Source: Candidatus Komeilibacteria bacterium S5_K13
GTDB taxonomy: Bacteria; Patescibacteriota; Patescibacteriia; UBA1558; S5-K13
Assembly (NCBI GenBank): GCA_019248485.1
Contig: JAEHGL010000008.1
Location: 1 to 37,793, forward strand
Direction of reading: 5' to 3'
DNA: 37,793 nucleotides
Shown: positions 9,044 through 20,919 of the stretch, one piece after another
How the letters are laid out: the number at the start of each line of letters is the position of its first letter
How positions within the stretch are numbered: position 1 is the stretch's first letter
The notes under the pieces: generated by a model
Databases searched by the model: none
The model's input: the letters and a program-made list of their open reading frames with translations, nothing else
Told to the model about the DNA's origin: nothing
Position numbers and translations under genes: made by a program

Positions 9044-10279
9044 ATGTTAGATATAAAACGCATACGCGAACAAAAAAATGAAGTTGAAGAAGCACTACTG
9101 AAGAGGATGGATAAGGTTGATCTGGACTCAATAATATTTCTTGATGATAAAAGAAAAGAACTAGTTACTAAAACAGATGATCTAAAGGCAGAAAAAAATA
9201 AATACAGCAAGACAAAGCCGTCAGAAGAAATCATTTTTAAAATGAAAAATCTTGGTGAAGAACTTAAAGAATTAGAGGAAAAATTAAAAAATGTAGAAAT
9301 AGAACTAAATGAGAAATTATTAGAACTTCCAAATACGCCACTTGATGAAGTGATTTCAGGTGGAAAAGAAAATAATAAAGTTGTTTATACCTATAGCAAG
9401 AAACCAGAATTTAAATTTGAAACAAAGGATCATATTGAGCTTTGTAAAAACTTAGGACTTATTGATTATGAAAGAGCTGTAAAGATGTCTGGATCTGGTT
9501 TTTGGTGTTATACAGATAAAGGAGCAATGCTTGAATGGGCCTTATTAAATTATTTCAAAGACTATCACTATAAAAATGGATATAAGTTTATGATACCCCC
9601 ATTTTTACTAAACGAAGCGTCTGCTTATGCCTCTGGTCATTTGCCAAAATTTGGAGAGGATTTGTTTTGGACACAAGACAAACTTTGTCTTAATGCAACC
9701 AGTGAAATGATGATAAACAATTATCATAGGGATGAAATATTGGACGAATCAAAATTACCACTTAAATATTTTGCATACTCAGCTTGTTTTAGAAGAGAAG
9801 CTGGAAGTTATCGCGCAGAGGAGAGGGGCATGATAAGGGGGCATCAATTTAACAAAATAGAAATGTTTCAATTTGTAAAGAAAGAGGATTCGAGCCGCGC
9901 TTTTGATGAAATGTTGTCTCATGCTAGAAAACTACTTGAAGGTCTTGGTCTTCATTTTCAGATTTCTGCTCTTGCAGCAGGGGACTGTAGTGATGCAATG
10001 GCAAAAACGTATGATGTAGAAATTTGGATTCCAAGCATGAAAATATATAAAGAAGTAAGTAGCGCATCGCTAGCACTAGATTATCAAGCAAGAAGATCAA
10101 ACATAAGGTATAAGAATAAAGAAACAGACAGAAATGAATTTGTTTATACCCTAAATGCATCAGGACTTGCTACTAGTCGTGTTTTTCCAGCACTATTAGA
10201 GCAGTGTCAGAGATCTGATGGATCAATAAAGATTCCAAAAGTACTTCATAAATATTTGCCGTTTAAAGAAATAAAATAA
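9044..10279 (+). CDS. serS: seryl-tRNA synthetase
   Basis: The 411 residues are normal for SerS. An N-terminal antiparallel coiled-coil arm (about 1-105, rich in Lys and Glu, with LDDKRKELVTKTDDLKAEKN) binds the long variable arm of tRNA-Ser. The class II core has LNATSEM, motif 2 as FRREAGSYRAEERGMIRGHQF, and motif 3 as LNASGLATSRVFPALLEQCQ followed by GSIKIPKVL. It charges tRNA-Ser and, where present, tRNA-Sec. The TAA stop is directly followed by the alr ATG with no spacer, so the two are probably translationally coupled. Confidence 0.97.
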   Translation: MLDIKRIREQKNEVEEALLKRMDKVDLDSIIFLDDKRKELVTKTDDLKAEKNKYSKTKPSEEIIFKMKNLGEELKELEEKLKNVEIELNEKLLELPNTPLDEVISGGKENNKVVYTYSKKPEFKFETKDHIELCKNLGLIDYERAVKMSGSGFWCYTDKGAMLEWALLNYFKDYHYKNGYKFMIPPFLLNEASAYASGHLPKFGEDLFWTQDKLCLNATSEMMINNYHRDEILDESKLPLKYFAYSACFRREAGSYRAEERGMIRGHQFNKIEMFQFVKKEDSSRAFDEMLSHARKLLEGLGLHFQISALAAGDCSDAMAKTYDVEIWIPSMKIYKEVSSASLALDYQARRSNIRYKNKETDRNEFVYTLNASGLATSRVFPALLEQCQRSDGSIKIPKVLHKYLPFKEIK

Positions 10280-11446
10280 ATGTATCATAATTCTTGGATA
10301 GAAATATCAAAGAAAAATTTAGTACACAATATTAAGCTTCATAGGAAGTTTCTAGGTAGTGATACAAAGCTTATAGCTGTTGTAAAGAGTAATGCTTATG
10401 GACATGGAATGGTTATTGTATCAAAGATTTTAGATACCTTAAATGAAGTTGATATTATAGCAACTGTAAATCTAGAAGAGGCGATTGAGCTAAGAAATAA
10501 TAAAATAAAAAAGTCAATTTTGGTATTAAGTTATTTTGGGATACTTGAAAATAGAGGAGTGCTAGTTGAACAAGTAATTTGTTCGATAAAAAATGATATA
10601 TCTTTAATGATATATGATCTAAAAACTGCAAAGTTTTTAAATTCTGTTGCTAAAAAATTAAATAAAAAAATAAAAGTTCACATCAAAATAGAAACAGGAA
10701 TGACGAGGGTGGGCGTTTTGTATGATGAGGCCATTAGTTTTATAAAAAATGTAAGTAAATTAAAAAGTATAGAAATAATTGGACTTGCATCGCATTTTGC
10801 TACAACAGAAGAAGCAAATCAATATTTTACAAAACAGCAGTTAAATAATTTCGAGATGTTAATAAAAAATTTGGAGAAAGCAAATATTGTTATCCCCATA
10901 AAGCATATTGCATGTAGCGCGGCAATTACATTGTCAGAGAATAATCATTTTGATGCAGTGAGACTTGGAATAGCAATGTATGGTCTTTGGCCGTCTTTTG
11001 AAAATAAGAATTTGATAAAAAAGCAATATTCATGGTTTGATTTGCGACCCGTGCTTTCTTGGAAAACGAAGTTATTTCAAATAAAAAGAGTTGGGGCAGA
11101 TACTCCAGTTGGATATGGTTGTACGTACAGAACAAAAAGGGCTACAAAAATAGGTCTTATTCCAGTAGGCTACTTTGAGGGCTTAGATAGGGGGTTCTCA
11201 AATAATGGTTATGTATTAGTGGGTGGTAAAAAATGTTCTATAATAGGTAGGGTTTGTATGAATATAACAATAATTGATTTAAATAGCGTAAAGAATGCTG
11301 TCGTTGGAGATGATGTGGTTTTAATAGGCAAACAACTTAAAAATTATATAAGCGCTGAAGAGTTGGCAGATAGAATAGGCACTATTAATTATGAAATAAC
11401 AACAAGACTCAATAGTAACACATTAAGAGTTATAAAAAATGATTAG
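10280..11446 (+). CDS. alr: alanine racemase
   Basis: This 388-residue protein is a fold-type III PLP enzyme that makes D-alanine for peptidoglycan. The PLP lysine is K36 in AVVKSNAYGHG. The second catalytic base is Y283 in GYGCTYR. The C-terminal beta domain carries VGRVCMNITIIDL. The length fits the family. It starts immediately after the serS stop and overlaps the next gene (ftsQ) by 8 nt. It therefore sits in a translation and cell-wall operon. An intact D-Ala route suggests that the cell still makes its own peptidoglycan, in line with mltG, ftsQ and the M23 hydrolase nearby. Confidence 0.95.
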   Translation: MYHNSWIEISKKNLVHNIKLHRKFLGSDTKLIAVVKSNAYGHGMVIVSKILDTLNEVDIIATVNLEEAIELRNNKIKKSILVLSYFGILENRGVLVEQVICSIKNDISLMIYDLKTAKFLNSVAKKLNKKIKVHIKIETGMTRVGVLYDEAISFIKNVSKLKSIEIIGLASHFATTEEANQYFTKQQLNNFEMLIKNLEKANIVIPIKHIACSAAITLSENNHFDAVRLGIAMYGLWPSFENKNLIKKQYSWFDLRPVLSWKTKLFQIKRVGADTPVGYGCTYRTKRATKIGLIPVGYFEGLDRGFSNNGYVLVGGKKCSIIGRVCMNITIIDLNSVKNAVVGDDVVLIGKQLKNYISAEELADRIGTINYEITTRLNSNTLRVIKND

Positions 11447-17168: not shown

Positions 17169-18374
17169 TTATTTTAGGTATTTATCTATTTCATTTAAAG
17201 CTATTTTTAAAATATCTTTTTTGATGGGAGATATGTATTTATATAATTCATTTTTATTTACCCACTTATGATCTATAATCTCTTTTTCTTCAGGATTAAA
17301 TTTTTCATCTCCTATTTTTTGAATAAAATATATTGTTTGTTTTTGACCGCAGAATTTCTCATTATATTTTTTGTGATGAGGTGGAATATTTTTCCAATAC
17401 ATAGGCCAATAATGGGAACTTGTTCGACTAGCTACGCCGAGGATTTTTATATTTGTAAATCCTGTTTCTTCTCGAATTTCTCTTTTAATAGAGTCTTCAT
17501 AACTTTCATTTTTTTCTATTCCACCTTGTGGTAATCTGTATCCAATCTTATCATATATTTCTTTTATGATAAGTATTTTGTTTTCGTCGTTGATTATTAC
17601 AGATACGGCATTATTTCTAAATGGTTTTTGAAGATGAATTTTCCATTTTATTATATTATAACAATATACTATAGTTGCATTTATGATCCTTCTAAATCTA
17701 TATGGTTCTGTAATTAGTCTCCATAACCATTCAAATCCTATTTTTCTTAATATTTTTGGTGCTCTTTTTGTTTTTTCAGCAATAAAATCTATTGTACCGC
17801 CAACACCTATTGCAAGACTTATGTTTGGTATGTTTTTTAGATTTTTATAAATCCATTTTTCTTGAAATGGTGCACCGTATCCAATTAACAATATTTGTGC
17901 GCCACTATTTTTTATTTGTTCTATGATTTTATTGTTTTCTTCTTTTGATATTTGATTTATATTTTTAAATCCTGATTCAGCCCCAACAATTTGCAAATTT
18001 TTATATCTTAATTCTAGTTTTGTTTTTGCAATACTAGCGTAATTATCCATGCCCCCGAGTAAAAATATTTTATAGTTATTTTTATTTGAAAGCTCAATTA
18101 TTTTTTGAGTTAGGTCTGACCCAGTAACTCTGTGGTTTATTCCTTGGTTTAAAAAAAATGAACCAATTATTATACCAAACCCATCAGGGGTTGATATGTC
18201 GGCATTATTTAGAATCATTCTATACTCTGCGTCTTTTTGAGCTTTTAATATAATTTCTGGGTTTATTGTGACAATGTAATGCTGTTTTTTGTCATCTAAA
18301 AAATCCTCTATTTTTTCAAGTGTTTTTTTGTAATTTATATTATTTATGTCAACATTTAGTATGCAAGGCTTCAT
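17169..18374 (-). CDS. WecG/TagA/CpsF glycosyltransferase fused to a Nudix hydrolase
   Basis: This 401-residue protein has two domains in one uninterrupted frame. Residues 1-240 are a GT26 (WecG/TagA/CpsF) glycosyltransferase: VTINPEII, STPDGFG with the likely catalytic Asp64, VTGSDL, FLLGG, and GYGAPFQEKW (165-174). TagA-type enzymes move N-acetylmannosamine or similar sugars to a lipid carrier. Residues 255-400 are a Nudix domain with a perfect box, G284-x5-E290-x7-REIREETGF (298-306). The preceding YRLPQGG resembles RppH and dinucleoside polyphosphate hydrolases. Both domains keep their key residues, so both may be active. The usual architecture of either family is a single domain. It heads the gltX operon. 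Confidence 0.88.
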   Translation of the reverse strand: MKPCILNVDINNINYKKTLEKIEDFLDDKKQHYIVTINPEIILKAQKDAEYRMILNNADISTPDGFGIIIGSFFLNQGINHRVTGSDLTQKIIELSNKNNYKIFLLGGMDNYASIAKTKLELRYKNLQIVGAESGFKNINQISKEENNKIIEQIKNSGAQILLIGYGAPFQEKWIYKNLKNIPNISLAIGVGGTIDFIAEKTKRAPKILRKIGFEWLWRLITEPYRFRRIINATIVYCYNIIKWKIHLQKPFRNNAVSVIINDENKILIIKEIYDKIGYRLPQGGIEKNESYEDSIKREIREETGFTNIKILGVASRTSSHYWPMYWKNIPPHHKKYNEKFCGQKQTIYFIQKIGDEKFNPEEKEIIDHKWVNKNELYKYISPIKKDILKIALNEIDKYLK

Positions 18375-18457: not shown

Positions 18458-18481
18458 AAAAAACTCTATTAGGATAGAGTT
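18458..18481 (-). terminator. terminator of the three-gene operon at 18.5-20.8 kb
   Basis: On the minus strand AACTCTAT (18474-18481) pairs perfectly with ATAGAGTT (18462-18469) across a four-base loop, and a T-run follows (18458-18463). It lies about 40 bases past the last stop codon. Confidence 0.8.
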
Positions 18482-18520
18482 ATTTTAGCAGTTTTTGAGA
18501 GTTATGAGAAGTAAAATGTC

Positions 18521-19132
18521 CTAAAAGCTATTATGGGTTTTTTTAAGAAAGGTTTTGTATTTTGGGTCTTCTTTCATCATTTTATCTAATGTTTCTCTTA
18601 AATATCTTGCTTTGCTTTTTTTTACTCCTAGTGATTTCCAATTTAAGTACCTTTCCGTTCTAGGGGAAATTCTTAGGGTAAATTTTACATTTACCTTTTC
18701 TGTTAATAAGCTGCCAGATTCTAGTAGTTCTAAGAAGTCTAGTATTGTGTCTTCTATTGATTTTTTATCCTTTTTATAAAATTTTAGAAAAAAATTTTCT
18801 CCTAAATTTTCATCTTTTCTAATATATTCTAATTGATCCGGAATTATGTGCCCTTTTTCCATGAGATATAAAACTGGTTTTTTATAAGCAAGAGCTGTTG
18901 CTATGATGTAGATTGTATCACTAAATGTATATGTCCCCTCTATTATAACAGCCTCTATTTGATCATAGCTAATACTTCGCCTTGCTTCATTTTCTCCCTT
19001 TGTCACGATTTTTTCTAAATTGCTAACAAGATTCACGCCATTTTTGACAAGTAGTTGATTGATAAGAAAATAGCGATTTTTCCAGTAATCGTCTTCTAGT
19101 TTTTCTAGATTTGCACAGTAATAAACTTTCAT
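18521..19132 (-). CDS. nucleoside deoxyribosyltransferase-like protein with a ribbon-helix-helix tail
   Basis: This 203-residue protein is assigned by pattern only. The N-terminal part (1-95) resembles the nucleoside 2-deoxyribosyltransferase fold: MKVYYCANLE at the start, and a middle strand-helix-strand DQIEAVIIEG...IATALAYKKPVLYL (57-90). The position where these enzymes carry the catalytic Glu appears to be Ile (YIIATALA), so the active site is probably altered. The C-terminal part (about 147-200), VNVKFTLRISPRTERYLNWK then KKSKARYLRETLDKMM, looks like a ribbon-helix-helix DNA-binding or dimer domain. It follows the asparaginase-like gene by 6 nt and is the last gene before a terminator. 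It could be a ligand-sensing regulator. Function is unknown. Confidence 0.7.
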   Translation of the reverse strand: MKVYYCANLEKLEDDYWKNRYFLINQLLVKNGVNLVSNLEKIVTKGENEARRSISYDQIEAVIIEGTYTFSDTIYIIATALAYKKPVLYLMEKGHIIPDQLEYIRKDENLGENFFLKFYKKDKKSIEDTILDFLELLESGSLLTEKVNVKFTLRISPRTERYLNWKSLGVKKSKARYLRETLDKMMKEDPKYKTFLKKTHNSF

Positions 19133-19138
19133 AACTTT

Positions 19139-20104
19139 TTATTGTAAAAACTCTTCTTGTATATTTTTACATAATAAATTCTTGATTTTTTCTTCGTTTT
19201 TTGTTTGTCCCAGTATCCATGATAATTTTGCGCACAAGCATTCTGGGCTAATATTACTTATCGTAAGAATGGTATGGAAAAAGCTTTTTCCGAAACTCAT
19301 TTTACTATATAAAATAGCAAGTTTTTTGCTTTCCTGACTAAGTTTAAATAGTTTTACCAATTTTTCCCTGTCCATTATTTTATTGGGCCAAGATTTAAAT
19401 ATAAGAACTTTTATTGGATTATTTGTTGACAGCAATGATTCTAGTATGTCAATCTCTGGAATTGTTTCTAAAAATAAATATTCATCACTCATTTTATAGA
19501 AATATTTTGTTTCCCCAATATTTTTTTTGGCTTCTTTTTCTATAGAAAGACCAAAATCTATTCTAGCTAGATACTTAGAATCTATTGAATCAAAGATATT
19601 TAGGTCGGACAAGCTACATCTATGCACTTTTGGAGCAGAAATTACTCTATTTCCATAGACAATATTTACTCCTTTAATATTGCTATTTATTACCTGTAAA
19701 GAATTTATTAAATTTGCTTTAAAAGACATATCTGGCATTAGATCGGATTCTTGCTCTATTGTATTAGATCCCGTTATTATTATTGGTTTTTGTGGATTTT
19801 GTATAAGCCAAAATAATTGATTTGAAAGCGTTGGAATAGAATCTGTATCGTGTATTATAAGAATGCCATCGTAGTTATTTTCATTGAGTCGTATGGTATT
19901 TATGATTTTGATAAGATTTTCTTTTGTTTTTGTTTCCCTTTCTTTTTCTATTATCAAAAAATCTTCTGTGTTAGCAATAAGAGATATTTCTGGTATTTTA
20001 CTAAGCCATTTATGTATGTCTTCTTTTTTTTCAACATATACAAAACCATCTTTTTTATCATAAATTCCAGTTCCGCCATAGAAAATTGTAAATATTTTGT
20101 TCAT
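19139..20104 (-). CDS. L-asparaginase/GatD-fold protein
   Basis: This 321-residue protein follows the two-domain asparaginase layout. Catalytic positions can be placed at T12 (FYGGTGIYD), T87 and D88 (IIHDTDSIPTLSNQL) and K159 (VISAPKVHRCSL), matching T12, T89, D90 and K162 of E. coli AnsB. Other landmarks are PIIITGSN and NLINSLQVI. Deviations are large: the usual TGGTIA is YGGTGI, HGTDT is HDTDS, and GSMRP is GSNTI. It may therefore use another amide or act as a sensor. GatD of the archaeal amidotransferase is a relative, but no GatE lies nearby. It starts 1 nt after the stop of the upstream membrane gene and ends 6 nt before the deoxyribosyltransferase-like gene. Confidence 0.75.
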   Translation of the reverse strand: MNKIFTIFYGGTGIYDKKDGFVYVEKKEDIHKWLSKIPEISLIANTEDFLIIEKERETKTKENLIKIINTIRLNENNYDGILIIHDTDSIPTLSNQLFWLIQNPQKPIIITGSNTIEQESDLMPDMSFKANLINSLQVINSNIKGVNIVYGNRVISAPKVHRCSLSDLNIFDSIDSKYLARIDFGLSIEKEAKKNIGETKYFYKMSDEYLFLETIPEIDILESLLSTNNPIKVLIFKSWPNKIMDREKLVKLFKLSQESKKLAILYSKMSFGKSFFHTILTISNISPECLCAKLSWILGQTKNEEKIKNLLCKNIQEEFLQ

Positions 20105-20105
20105 T

Positions 20106-20789
20106 TTAATCCTTTTTGAAAATTAGATGGGCTATTAATAGATTCATTAGAAGGGCTGATACAGCCCCTAGCCAATGTAAATAATGTTTGCCAATATGCG
20201 GAAAATACCAAGCAAAAATAATTCCAAGAATGTACGGAATAATTGTAGCCAACAAGATGCTTTTTAGTATGGTTTTATTTATACCCTCTGCTAATATATA
20301 CTTTCTAATAAAAATTAATAGAGAGATTATAAATAGTATTATAAAATATATCCCATATATTAAATTTAATATATTATTTTCTATCTGATAAAGATTATTA
20401 TTATAGGTATAGTGTCCAATTATAAAATCAGGAGAAAAAATAATATAAAATATTATTAGAGTTAATAATATTAATATATAATAAAGTGCTTTTTTAATTT
20501 TAAAAACTCTATACGGAAATTCTATAGAAAACATGAAAAAACACATTATAATTAATAATGTGCTAGAGTATATTAATTTATTTAATATAATGGATAAATT
20601 ATTATTTAAAGTTGACAATAGGCAGATGATTAATATCGTCCATATTCCCGCCACGAAACACATAAAAGCAAAGTAAGTATTTGCTCTATTATTTATACCT
20701 TTATTTTTTTGTAGTATTTTTATTCCAATAAATATGTTGGAGACAAGACTTATAAGTAAAATAATAATTTTTATCATATTATTAAGCAC
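20106..20789 (-). CDS. seven-helix membrane protein resembling a histidine-kinase 7TM sensor domain
   Basis: This 227-residue protein is nearly all membrane, with about seven helices and short loops. The pattern of an N-terminal helix, ...NRANTYFAFMCFVAGIW..., an amphipathic middle and a terminal helix ending in IFKKD resembles the N-terminal 7TM sensing module of some bacterial histidine kinases. No kinase, GAF or HAMP domain follows, and the next gene begins 1 nt after its stop. It could be an orphan sensor or a truncated receptor. The start used is GTG at 20789; an ATG at 20777 is equally possible. It is the first gene of the three-gene operon. Confidence 0.65.
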   Translation of the reverse strand: MLNNMIKIIILLISLVSNIFIGIKILQKNKGINNRANTYFAFMCFVAGIWTILIICLLSTLNNNLSIILNKLIYSSTLLIIMCFFMFSIEFPYRVFKIKKALYYILILLTLIIFYIIFSPDFIIGHYTYNNNLYQIENNILNLIYGIYFIILFIISLLIFIRKYILAEGINKTILKSILLATIIPYILGIIFAWYFPHIGKHYLHWLGAVSALLMNLLIAHLIFKKD

Positions 20790-20874
20790 TATGGATTAAT
20801 AGTTCTTATTAGACGGCGCATATTGCTAGGACGGCTATCTATACTTTTAACCTACTCCTCTCTTAAAAAGATGT

Positions 20875-20919
20875 CAAGGGGTCATACGACCCCTTGTGTG
20901 GGGCTATACAATCCCTCAC
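20875..20919. other. two adjacent GC-rich hairpins downstream of rlmN
   Basis: CAAGGGGTC (20875-20883) and GACCCCTTG (20888-20896) form a perfect nine-pair stem with a four-base loop. A second stem, GTGGGG with CCTCAC (20898-20903 with 20914-20919, one G-T pair), follows. The local GC is high for the window. It lies in the spacer between the rlmN 3' end and the 7TM gene, both on the minus strand. A backup terminator, a processed RNA or a leader element of the operon are possible. Confidence 0.5.

Follow-up and report, generated by a model that had tools for sequence, protein, structure and literature searches.

What does a small bacterium gain from an operon that joins a membrane sensor without its kinase, a relative of asparaginase and a relative of nucleotide-hydrolyzing enzymes with a DNA-binding tail? 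This question is raised by a locus of Candidatus Komeilibacteria bacterium S5_K13, whose genome of 1.06 Mb is 99% complete. Patescibacteria generally carry few regulators in their genomes, and most members cannot be grown; to our knowledge, how they regulate their genes has hardly been described. The best-supported account of the locus, as read from sequences and predicted structures, is an unusually built repressor that would consist of one or two parts and respond to a ligand. In the following, the window refers to the whole stretch of DNA that was analyzed, 37,793 nucleotides in length.

Organization of the operon

The preliminary description of this DNA had reported three packed genes on the minus strand, which the coordinates of the open reading frames confirm: the intergenic gaps are 1 and 6 nt. 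The features of the operon are the following:

20849–20877, minus strand: sigma-70-like core promoter, from reading the sequence
20812–20835, minus strand: probable operator GCCGTC-N12-GCCGTC, with hexamers at 20830–20835 and 20812–20817
20106–20789, minus strand: gene 1, 227 aa, 7TM sensor-like membrane protein of the HisKA_7TM type, without kinase
19139–20104, minus strand: gene 2 (P0002), 321 aa, type I asparaginase fold, probably a pseudoenzyme
18521–19132, minus strand: gene 3 (P0003), 203 aa, DNPH1/nucleoside-deoxyribosyltransferase-like domain plus C-terminal ribbon-helix-helix (RHH)
18458–18481, minus strand: weak intrinsic terminator-like hairpin, AACTCTAT-CCTA-ATAGAGTT, then TTTT

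The promoter–operator region (20812–20877) lies outside the coordinates covered by the preliminary description. Its −35 box TTGACA (20872–20877) and −10 box TAGGTT (20849–20854) are separated by a spacer of 17 bp, and TTGACA-N17-TANNTT precedes the operator at the equivalent place in all three other genomes of the family. At the other end, the hairpin had been called a perfect terminator, which holds for its 8-bp inverted repeat and the T-run but not for its strength: with just two G–C pairs, it stays below the threshold of the terminator scan, which needs three.

Two neighboring elements of the window can be noted in addition. A strong terminator-like hairpin of nine pairs, six of them G–C, occupies 20875–20896, overlaps the −35 box of the operon and probably ends the upstream rlmN-like gene. 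The next gene downstream (17169–18374) combines a Nudix hydrolase-like C terminus with an N terminus that, judged by eye, resembles WecG/TagA-type glycosyltransferases in a single open reading frame.

A 7TM input module without kinase

Gene 1 matches the Pfam family HisKA_7TM (PF16927, E 1.4e-12) over model positions 2–216 of 224 and displays seven hydrophobic segments. No HisKA or HATPase Pfam match was found in its 227 residues, and the protein stops after the 7TM part—just as the locus had been described before, as the sensing module of a histidine kinase without the kinase part. Judging from the N termini of the relatives, ATG at 20777 is the more likely start codon than GTG at 20789. Gene 1 thus shares the input module of the HisKA_7TM sensor kinases but bears neither kinase nor GAF domain, and in its relatives the 7TM gene occurs either singly or in two to three tandem copies, often together with a longer 7TM protein of ~460 aa.

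An asparaginase fold with a dispersed active site

Gene 2 matches PF00710 (Pfam, E 7.8e-20), and its predicted structure (pLDDT 83) can be superposed on type I asparaginases, with a Z of 30.5 over 302 residues for 2ocd; the comparison with 1zq1 gives a Z of 29.1. The asparaginase fold proposed earlier is therefore secured, and it is shared with type I L-asparaginase and GatD over the whole length. The active site is a different matter. Type I asparaginases employ the catalytic residues T12, T89, D90, and K162 in the numbering of Escherichia coli asparaginase II. In gene 2, T12 was assigned from the conserved GGT motif, and the alignment to a Pyrococcus asparaginase places T87 and D88 on catalytic positions and R162 on that of the catalytic lysine, so that the set in the window reads T-T-D-R. 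Of the four positions named at the outset (T12, T87, D88, and K159), the first three are hence present, but K159 was the wrong choice for the lysine.

Among 62 relatives of gene 2, Thr12 is found in 30, Thr87 in 4, Asp88 in 32, and Lys at position 162 in 12, and not one of the 62 combines all four. Near-invariant in their place are E39, N131, I133, N134, Q137, and G151. The scarcity of Thr87 and the lack of any complete set speak against retained asparaginase catalysis, and gene 2 probably encodes a pseudoenzyme in which R162 has replaced the catalytic lysine. In contrast to type I L-asparaginase and GatD, this group bears no conserved Thr-Asp-Lys, has its own near-invariant residues and is almost always paired with an RHH regulator.

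A nucleotide-hydrolase fold fused to a DNA-binding domain

Gene 3 itself has no significant Pfam match. In its predicted structure (pLDDT 84), residues 1–140 fit DNPH1 (Rcl) and MilB, with a Z of 15.0 against 8rpt over 129 residues (2.7 Å), in line with the nucleoside-deoxyribosyltransferase-like fold suggested before. A sequence search of the PDB with the gene 3 profile gave no credible match, and the relation to DNPH1 is visible only by fold. Within the group, the Nuc_deoxyrib_tr model matches 11 of 55 members and the RHH-type NikA-like model 9 of 55; RHH antitoxin-type models (HicB and DUF6290) match weakly among the members. In DNPH1, E104 is the catalytic residue that forms the covalent intermediate (PMC10603095). 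The corresponding residue of gene 3 is I76, as had been noticed from the sequence, and this column contains no Glu in 66 homologues: it reads Leu in 43, Val in 7, Phe in 7, Ile in 4, Trp in 3, Met in 1, and Gln in 1. Compared with the DNPH1/MilB nucleotide N-glycosidases and the nucleoside deoxyribosyltransferases, the group hence keeps the fold, has no catalytic Glu and carries an RHH domain fused at its C terminus. With good confidence, the proteins of gene 2 and gene 3 are both considered noncatalytic.

The RHH tail of the preliminary description is well founded. The domain spans about residues 146–190 with predicted helices at 157–170 and 174–188, and five of its residues (K150, T152, R154, A175, and R179) do not vary in any of the 66 homologues. 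In the monomer model, the RHH strand is not formed and the pLDDT is low around 145–149, since such a strand pairs only in the dimer. RHH proteins like Arc, MetJ, and Omega contact bases through the strand residues i, i+2, and i+4, and it is K150-x-T152-x-R154 that lies on the strand of gene 3. Conservation is strongest in the RHH domain and weaker in the pocket. As these strand residues are invariant across the relatives, a DNA word conserved throughout the group is to be expected.

Conservation and inheritance

The proposal to check whether the three genes stay together has a clear outcome: they do so in all four genomes of the family of the window, each of which has a gene 2 homologue, and in the order, 22 of 25 loci have the 7TM gene on the operon strand. 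In the other orders of the class, this is the case in 8 of 40 loci. Within the order, 25 of 36 genomes have gene 3; in wider samples of genomes, it occurs in 73 of 381 for the class and in 40 of 380 for the phylum. Directly upstream of it, on the same strand, a gene 2 homologue is found in 61 of 65 loci, and mostly the two genes either lie a few bases apart or overlap slightly. Such conservation across 65 loci puts the operon beyond chance association.

In the gene 3 tree, each of the 13 families represented by at least two members forms a single clade, and the distance matrices of gene 2 and gene 3 are correlated (r 0.82, Mantel p 0.001). From the adjacency counts and the tree, gene 2 and gene 3 are a vertically inherited core, to which the 7TM gene is a lineage-specific addition. 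Viral, plasmid, or phage relatives of gene 3 were not found at single-sequence sensitivity, a search of PHROGs gave no significant match, and PADLOC returned no match for any of the three proteins at E 1.

Elsewhere in the class, several families have the pair placed after murF, where the division and cell-wall cluster ends. The order mraZ-rsmH-ftsL-ftsI-murF, followed by the pair at the end of the dcw cluster, is seen at L122, L123, L103, and L096–L098.

A conserved DNA word behind the promoter

The expected DNA word might well be GCCGTC. In the window, two of these hexamers are placed 18 bp apart immediately downstream of the −10 box. Over 65 loci comprising 766 kb, 92 pairs with starts 14–21 bp apart were observed, compared with 0.95 in shuffled sequence. 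The spacings peak at 16–19 bp, with 78 direct and 13 inverted pairs, and every other spacing occurs one to three times. Counting the window, 48 of 66 loci have an exact pair upstream of the operon, within 5.2 kb of gene 3; in 43 of these 48, −35 and −10 boxes with at most 4 mismatches of 12 bases stand just before it, as opposed to 20% for random positions. Of the 18 loci without an exact pair, at least 4 suffer from contig ends, and others are divergent or lie in dcw clusters (L103, L122, and L123).

At the level of genomes, a direct pair occurs in all 24 gene-3-positive genomes of the order that entered the search, with 47 direct-pair sites against 7 for a reversed control pattern (summed manually). 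Outside the order, the contrast in gene-3-positive genomes is only about twofold (145 against 66, likewise summed manually), probably because Ala–Val codons mimic the word in GC-rich genomes. A few gene-3-negative genomes also bear promoter-placed pairs—for instance G008, which is 89% complete. The genome of the window holds a single exact pair of the operator type, and when two mismatches are allowed, its 14 sites equal the 14 of the control and thus the background, so that no wider regulon emerges there.

At the same promoter position, the orientation of the hexamers varies—direct, reversed direct, or inverted—and flips between lineages. This fits a protein on DNA and argues against an RNA element; a search of Rfam over the operator regions found no family. 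Taken with the invariant strand, these statistics make it very likely that gene 3 binds GCCGTC, and repression by it is probable.

RHH regulators with sensor domains are already known, as are all three folds of the operon; NikR is such an RHH regulator with a sensor domain. Short repeats in mixed orientation are read by the RHH protein ParB/Omega of pSM19035 (PMC9499535). What the present system would have in common with these two is the RHH domain, probable autoregulation, and the use of short boxes that are asymmetric and stand in either direct or inverted order. Here, however, the sensor would be a pseudo-DNPH1 domain, the boxes are not contiguous but 16–19 bp apart, and a pseudo-asparaginase is the constant partner.

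More elaborate arrangements of the word also occur. Triple hexamer arrays with spacings of 16 and 18 (L205:2525–2564, L206:6100–6140, and L216:1836–1875) precede a graspetide-type ATP-grasp ligase, a giant RHS gene, and a gene of no assigned type, respectively. A second unit that bears operators lies mostly downstream of gene 3; it is found at L089:6759–6890, L098:7008–7107, L226:1232–1354, and about a dozen other class-level loci. It consists of a promoter, a GCCGTC pair (18 bp), 75–110 bp of sequence, a further pair (16 bp), and a DnaA-box-like GTGGATAA, and the genes behind it differ (ssb, a small gene resembling the GreA/B C terminus, and others). Because of this DnaA-box-like end, oriC was considered for the second unit and rejected: the GC skew does not turn over 258 kb and 140 kb in two genomes, and full DnaA boxes are not clustered.

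Genes behind the probable operator

In the order, the operator-headed operon runs on, on the same strand, into an alpha/beta (lipase-like) hydrolase in 15 of 25 loci and into a long-chain acyl-CoA synthetase in 17 of 25, and more rarely it includes a PlsC-type acyltransferase, a HAD phosphatase, or a BioF/SPT-like enzyme. Additional sites in promoter position stand before genes for secreted RHS-core proteins (TIGR03696), of which one has a CHAP domain and another, encoded by the second gene behind the pair at L213, a D-Ala-D-Ala carboxypeptidase (VanY-like) domain. Two SpvB/RHS proteins of very large size, radical-SAM genes, and an MvdC-like ATP-grasp peptide ligase (graspetide) are likewise preceded by such sites. 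These operators before hydrolase and acyl-CoA synthetase operons and before RHS genes are the ground for reading the module in terms of envelope or lipid scavenging and secreted effectors. In the genome of the window, acyl-CoA synthetase, a BioF-like enzyme, and a 7TM-GAF-histidine kinase cluster separately and without the operator, and the lipid link is therefore indirect there. Whether the module has a role in envelope or lipid matters at all is, in our estimation, evenly balanced.

The RHS/SpvB genes behind GCCGTC pairs, spread over several genomes of the order, are located at L045:3683–4840 and 9971–11125, L038:345–1220, L208:4694–5974, L215:5970–6893, L213:4358–5500, L206, and L210; the cell-wall hydrolase domains (CHAP and VanY-like) sit on two small RHS proteins. 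The separate cluster in the genome of the window (L236, contig C52, 4550–10273) comprises the acyl-CoA synthetase, the BioF/SPT-type alpha-oxoamine synthase, and the kinase, a 7TM-GAF-HisKA-HATPase protein that is the only other 7TM protein found in this genome. In outline it resembles the CqsA–CqsS pairing of synthase and sensor kinase in alpha-hydroxyketone quorum sensing, and it might produce a lipid signal.

Alternative explanations

An operon built from two enzyme folds might simply be metabolic: gene 2 would be an active amidohydrolase of changed specificity, gene 3 would be active in hydrolyzing or transferring nucleotides and carry a tail for DNA binding, and nutrients would be sensed by the 7TM protein. 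The gene 2 protein of the window does retain T12, T87, and D88, yet its relatives do not keep them as a set (T87 in 4 of 62, the full set in none), Glu is missing from the DNPH1 E104 column throughout, and gene 3 is best conserved in its RHH domain rather than its pocket; we regard this explanation as unlikely. The same low probability is given to the view that the GCCGTC pairs are an RNA 5′ leader element or the site of an unrelated regulator, with an incidental link to gene 3. The position of the pairs at or just past the predicted transcription start would suit it, as would the second unit, whose two pairs lie 75–110 bp apart and which many class-level genomes have downstream of gene 3. It is countered by the flipping orientation at one and the same place, by the lack of an Rfam family, by the presence of the pair in all gene-3-positive genomes of the order that were searched, and by the fact that, apart from gene 3, no constant member of the operon is evidently a DNA-binding protein.

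Adjacent, often overlapping genes and an RHH protein with its own probable operator are also what a toxin–antitoxin system would display. Gene 2 would then encode the toxin, acting by depletion of an amide or by a block of translation, and the RHH protein would be both antitoxin and autorepressor, to which the weak matches of HicB and DUF6290 could be added. Such systems would, however, be expected to be mobile or patchy, and here inheritance is vertical with every multimember family a single clade, the searches of plasmids, phages, and viral contigs, within their sensitivity, turned up no copy, the catalytic residues of gene 2 are scattered among its relatives, and extra operator sites stand before other genes; this makes the system a slightly poorer candidate still. 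The defence role considered in the preliminary description would see a membrane effector, an amidase, and a nucleotide-processing part acting against phages or mobile elements, and NDT/TIR-like and membrane parts are indeed common in defence islands. PADLOC gave no match, phage, plasmid, or viral relatives were not found at single-sequence sensitivity, the genes are widespread and vertically inherited in the order, the active sites are degenerate, and the surroundings are of the housekeeping kind, including the dcw cluster; this role was not borne out and is very improbable.

Proposed mechanism

In the account that we rather favor, gene 3 encodes an autorepressor, has a pseudoenzyme as its partner, and is linked to the state of envelope or lipids. 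On a molecular level, gene 3 would be a DNA-binding repressor of its own operon, whose RHH domain would read GCCGTC through K150, T152, and R154, in hexamers 16–19 bp apart, direct or inverted, just after the −10 box. As the operator is located directly downstream of this box, bound protein would block initiation. The N-terminal DNPH1-like nucleotide pocket, having lost its catalytic Glu, might now serve for sensing or dimerization, and gene 2 as the constant partner would probably be a second ligand-binding or corepressor subunit; that the two proteins form a complex is slightly favored. Gene 1 and its paralogues would provide a membrane sensor—in this order, the 7TM protein would add a membrane input. 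The link between a membrane signal, a ligand, and DNA binding, which had been suggested from the genes of the window, gains support from the conserved RHH strand and the operator. The module would most likely tune envelope or lipid scavenging, and in some lineages also secreted effectors, to a membrane or metabolite signal. A wider picture, in which two retired metabolic enzymes across Patescibacteria use one ancient operator word to couple a 7TM membrane or lipid signal to lipid scavenging and RHS effector release, that is, to episymbiotic contact, is conceivable and rather doubtful at the same time.

Implications for Patescibacteria

No paper was found that describes these parts together, and the combination of a pseudo-DNPH1–RHH protein, a constant pseudo-asparaginase and a class-wide operator is absent from the family libraries and, by sequence, from the solved structures. 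The locus offers a probable regulator together with its partner, and a defined DNA word that lends itself directly to tests in vitro. With the GCCGTC word at hand, regulons could be read from sequence alone in many uncultured genomes. The acyl-CoA synthetase, the lipase-like hydrolase, the 7TM protein, and the RHS proteins might give a clue to what these cells sense. If the proposed account is true, it would be a clear case of two metabolic enzymes that were retired to sensing and have been kept together across a bacterial class.
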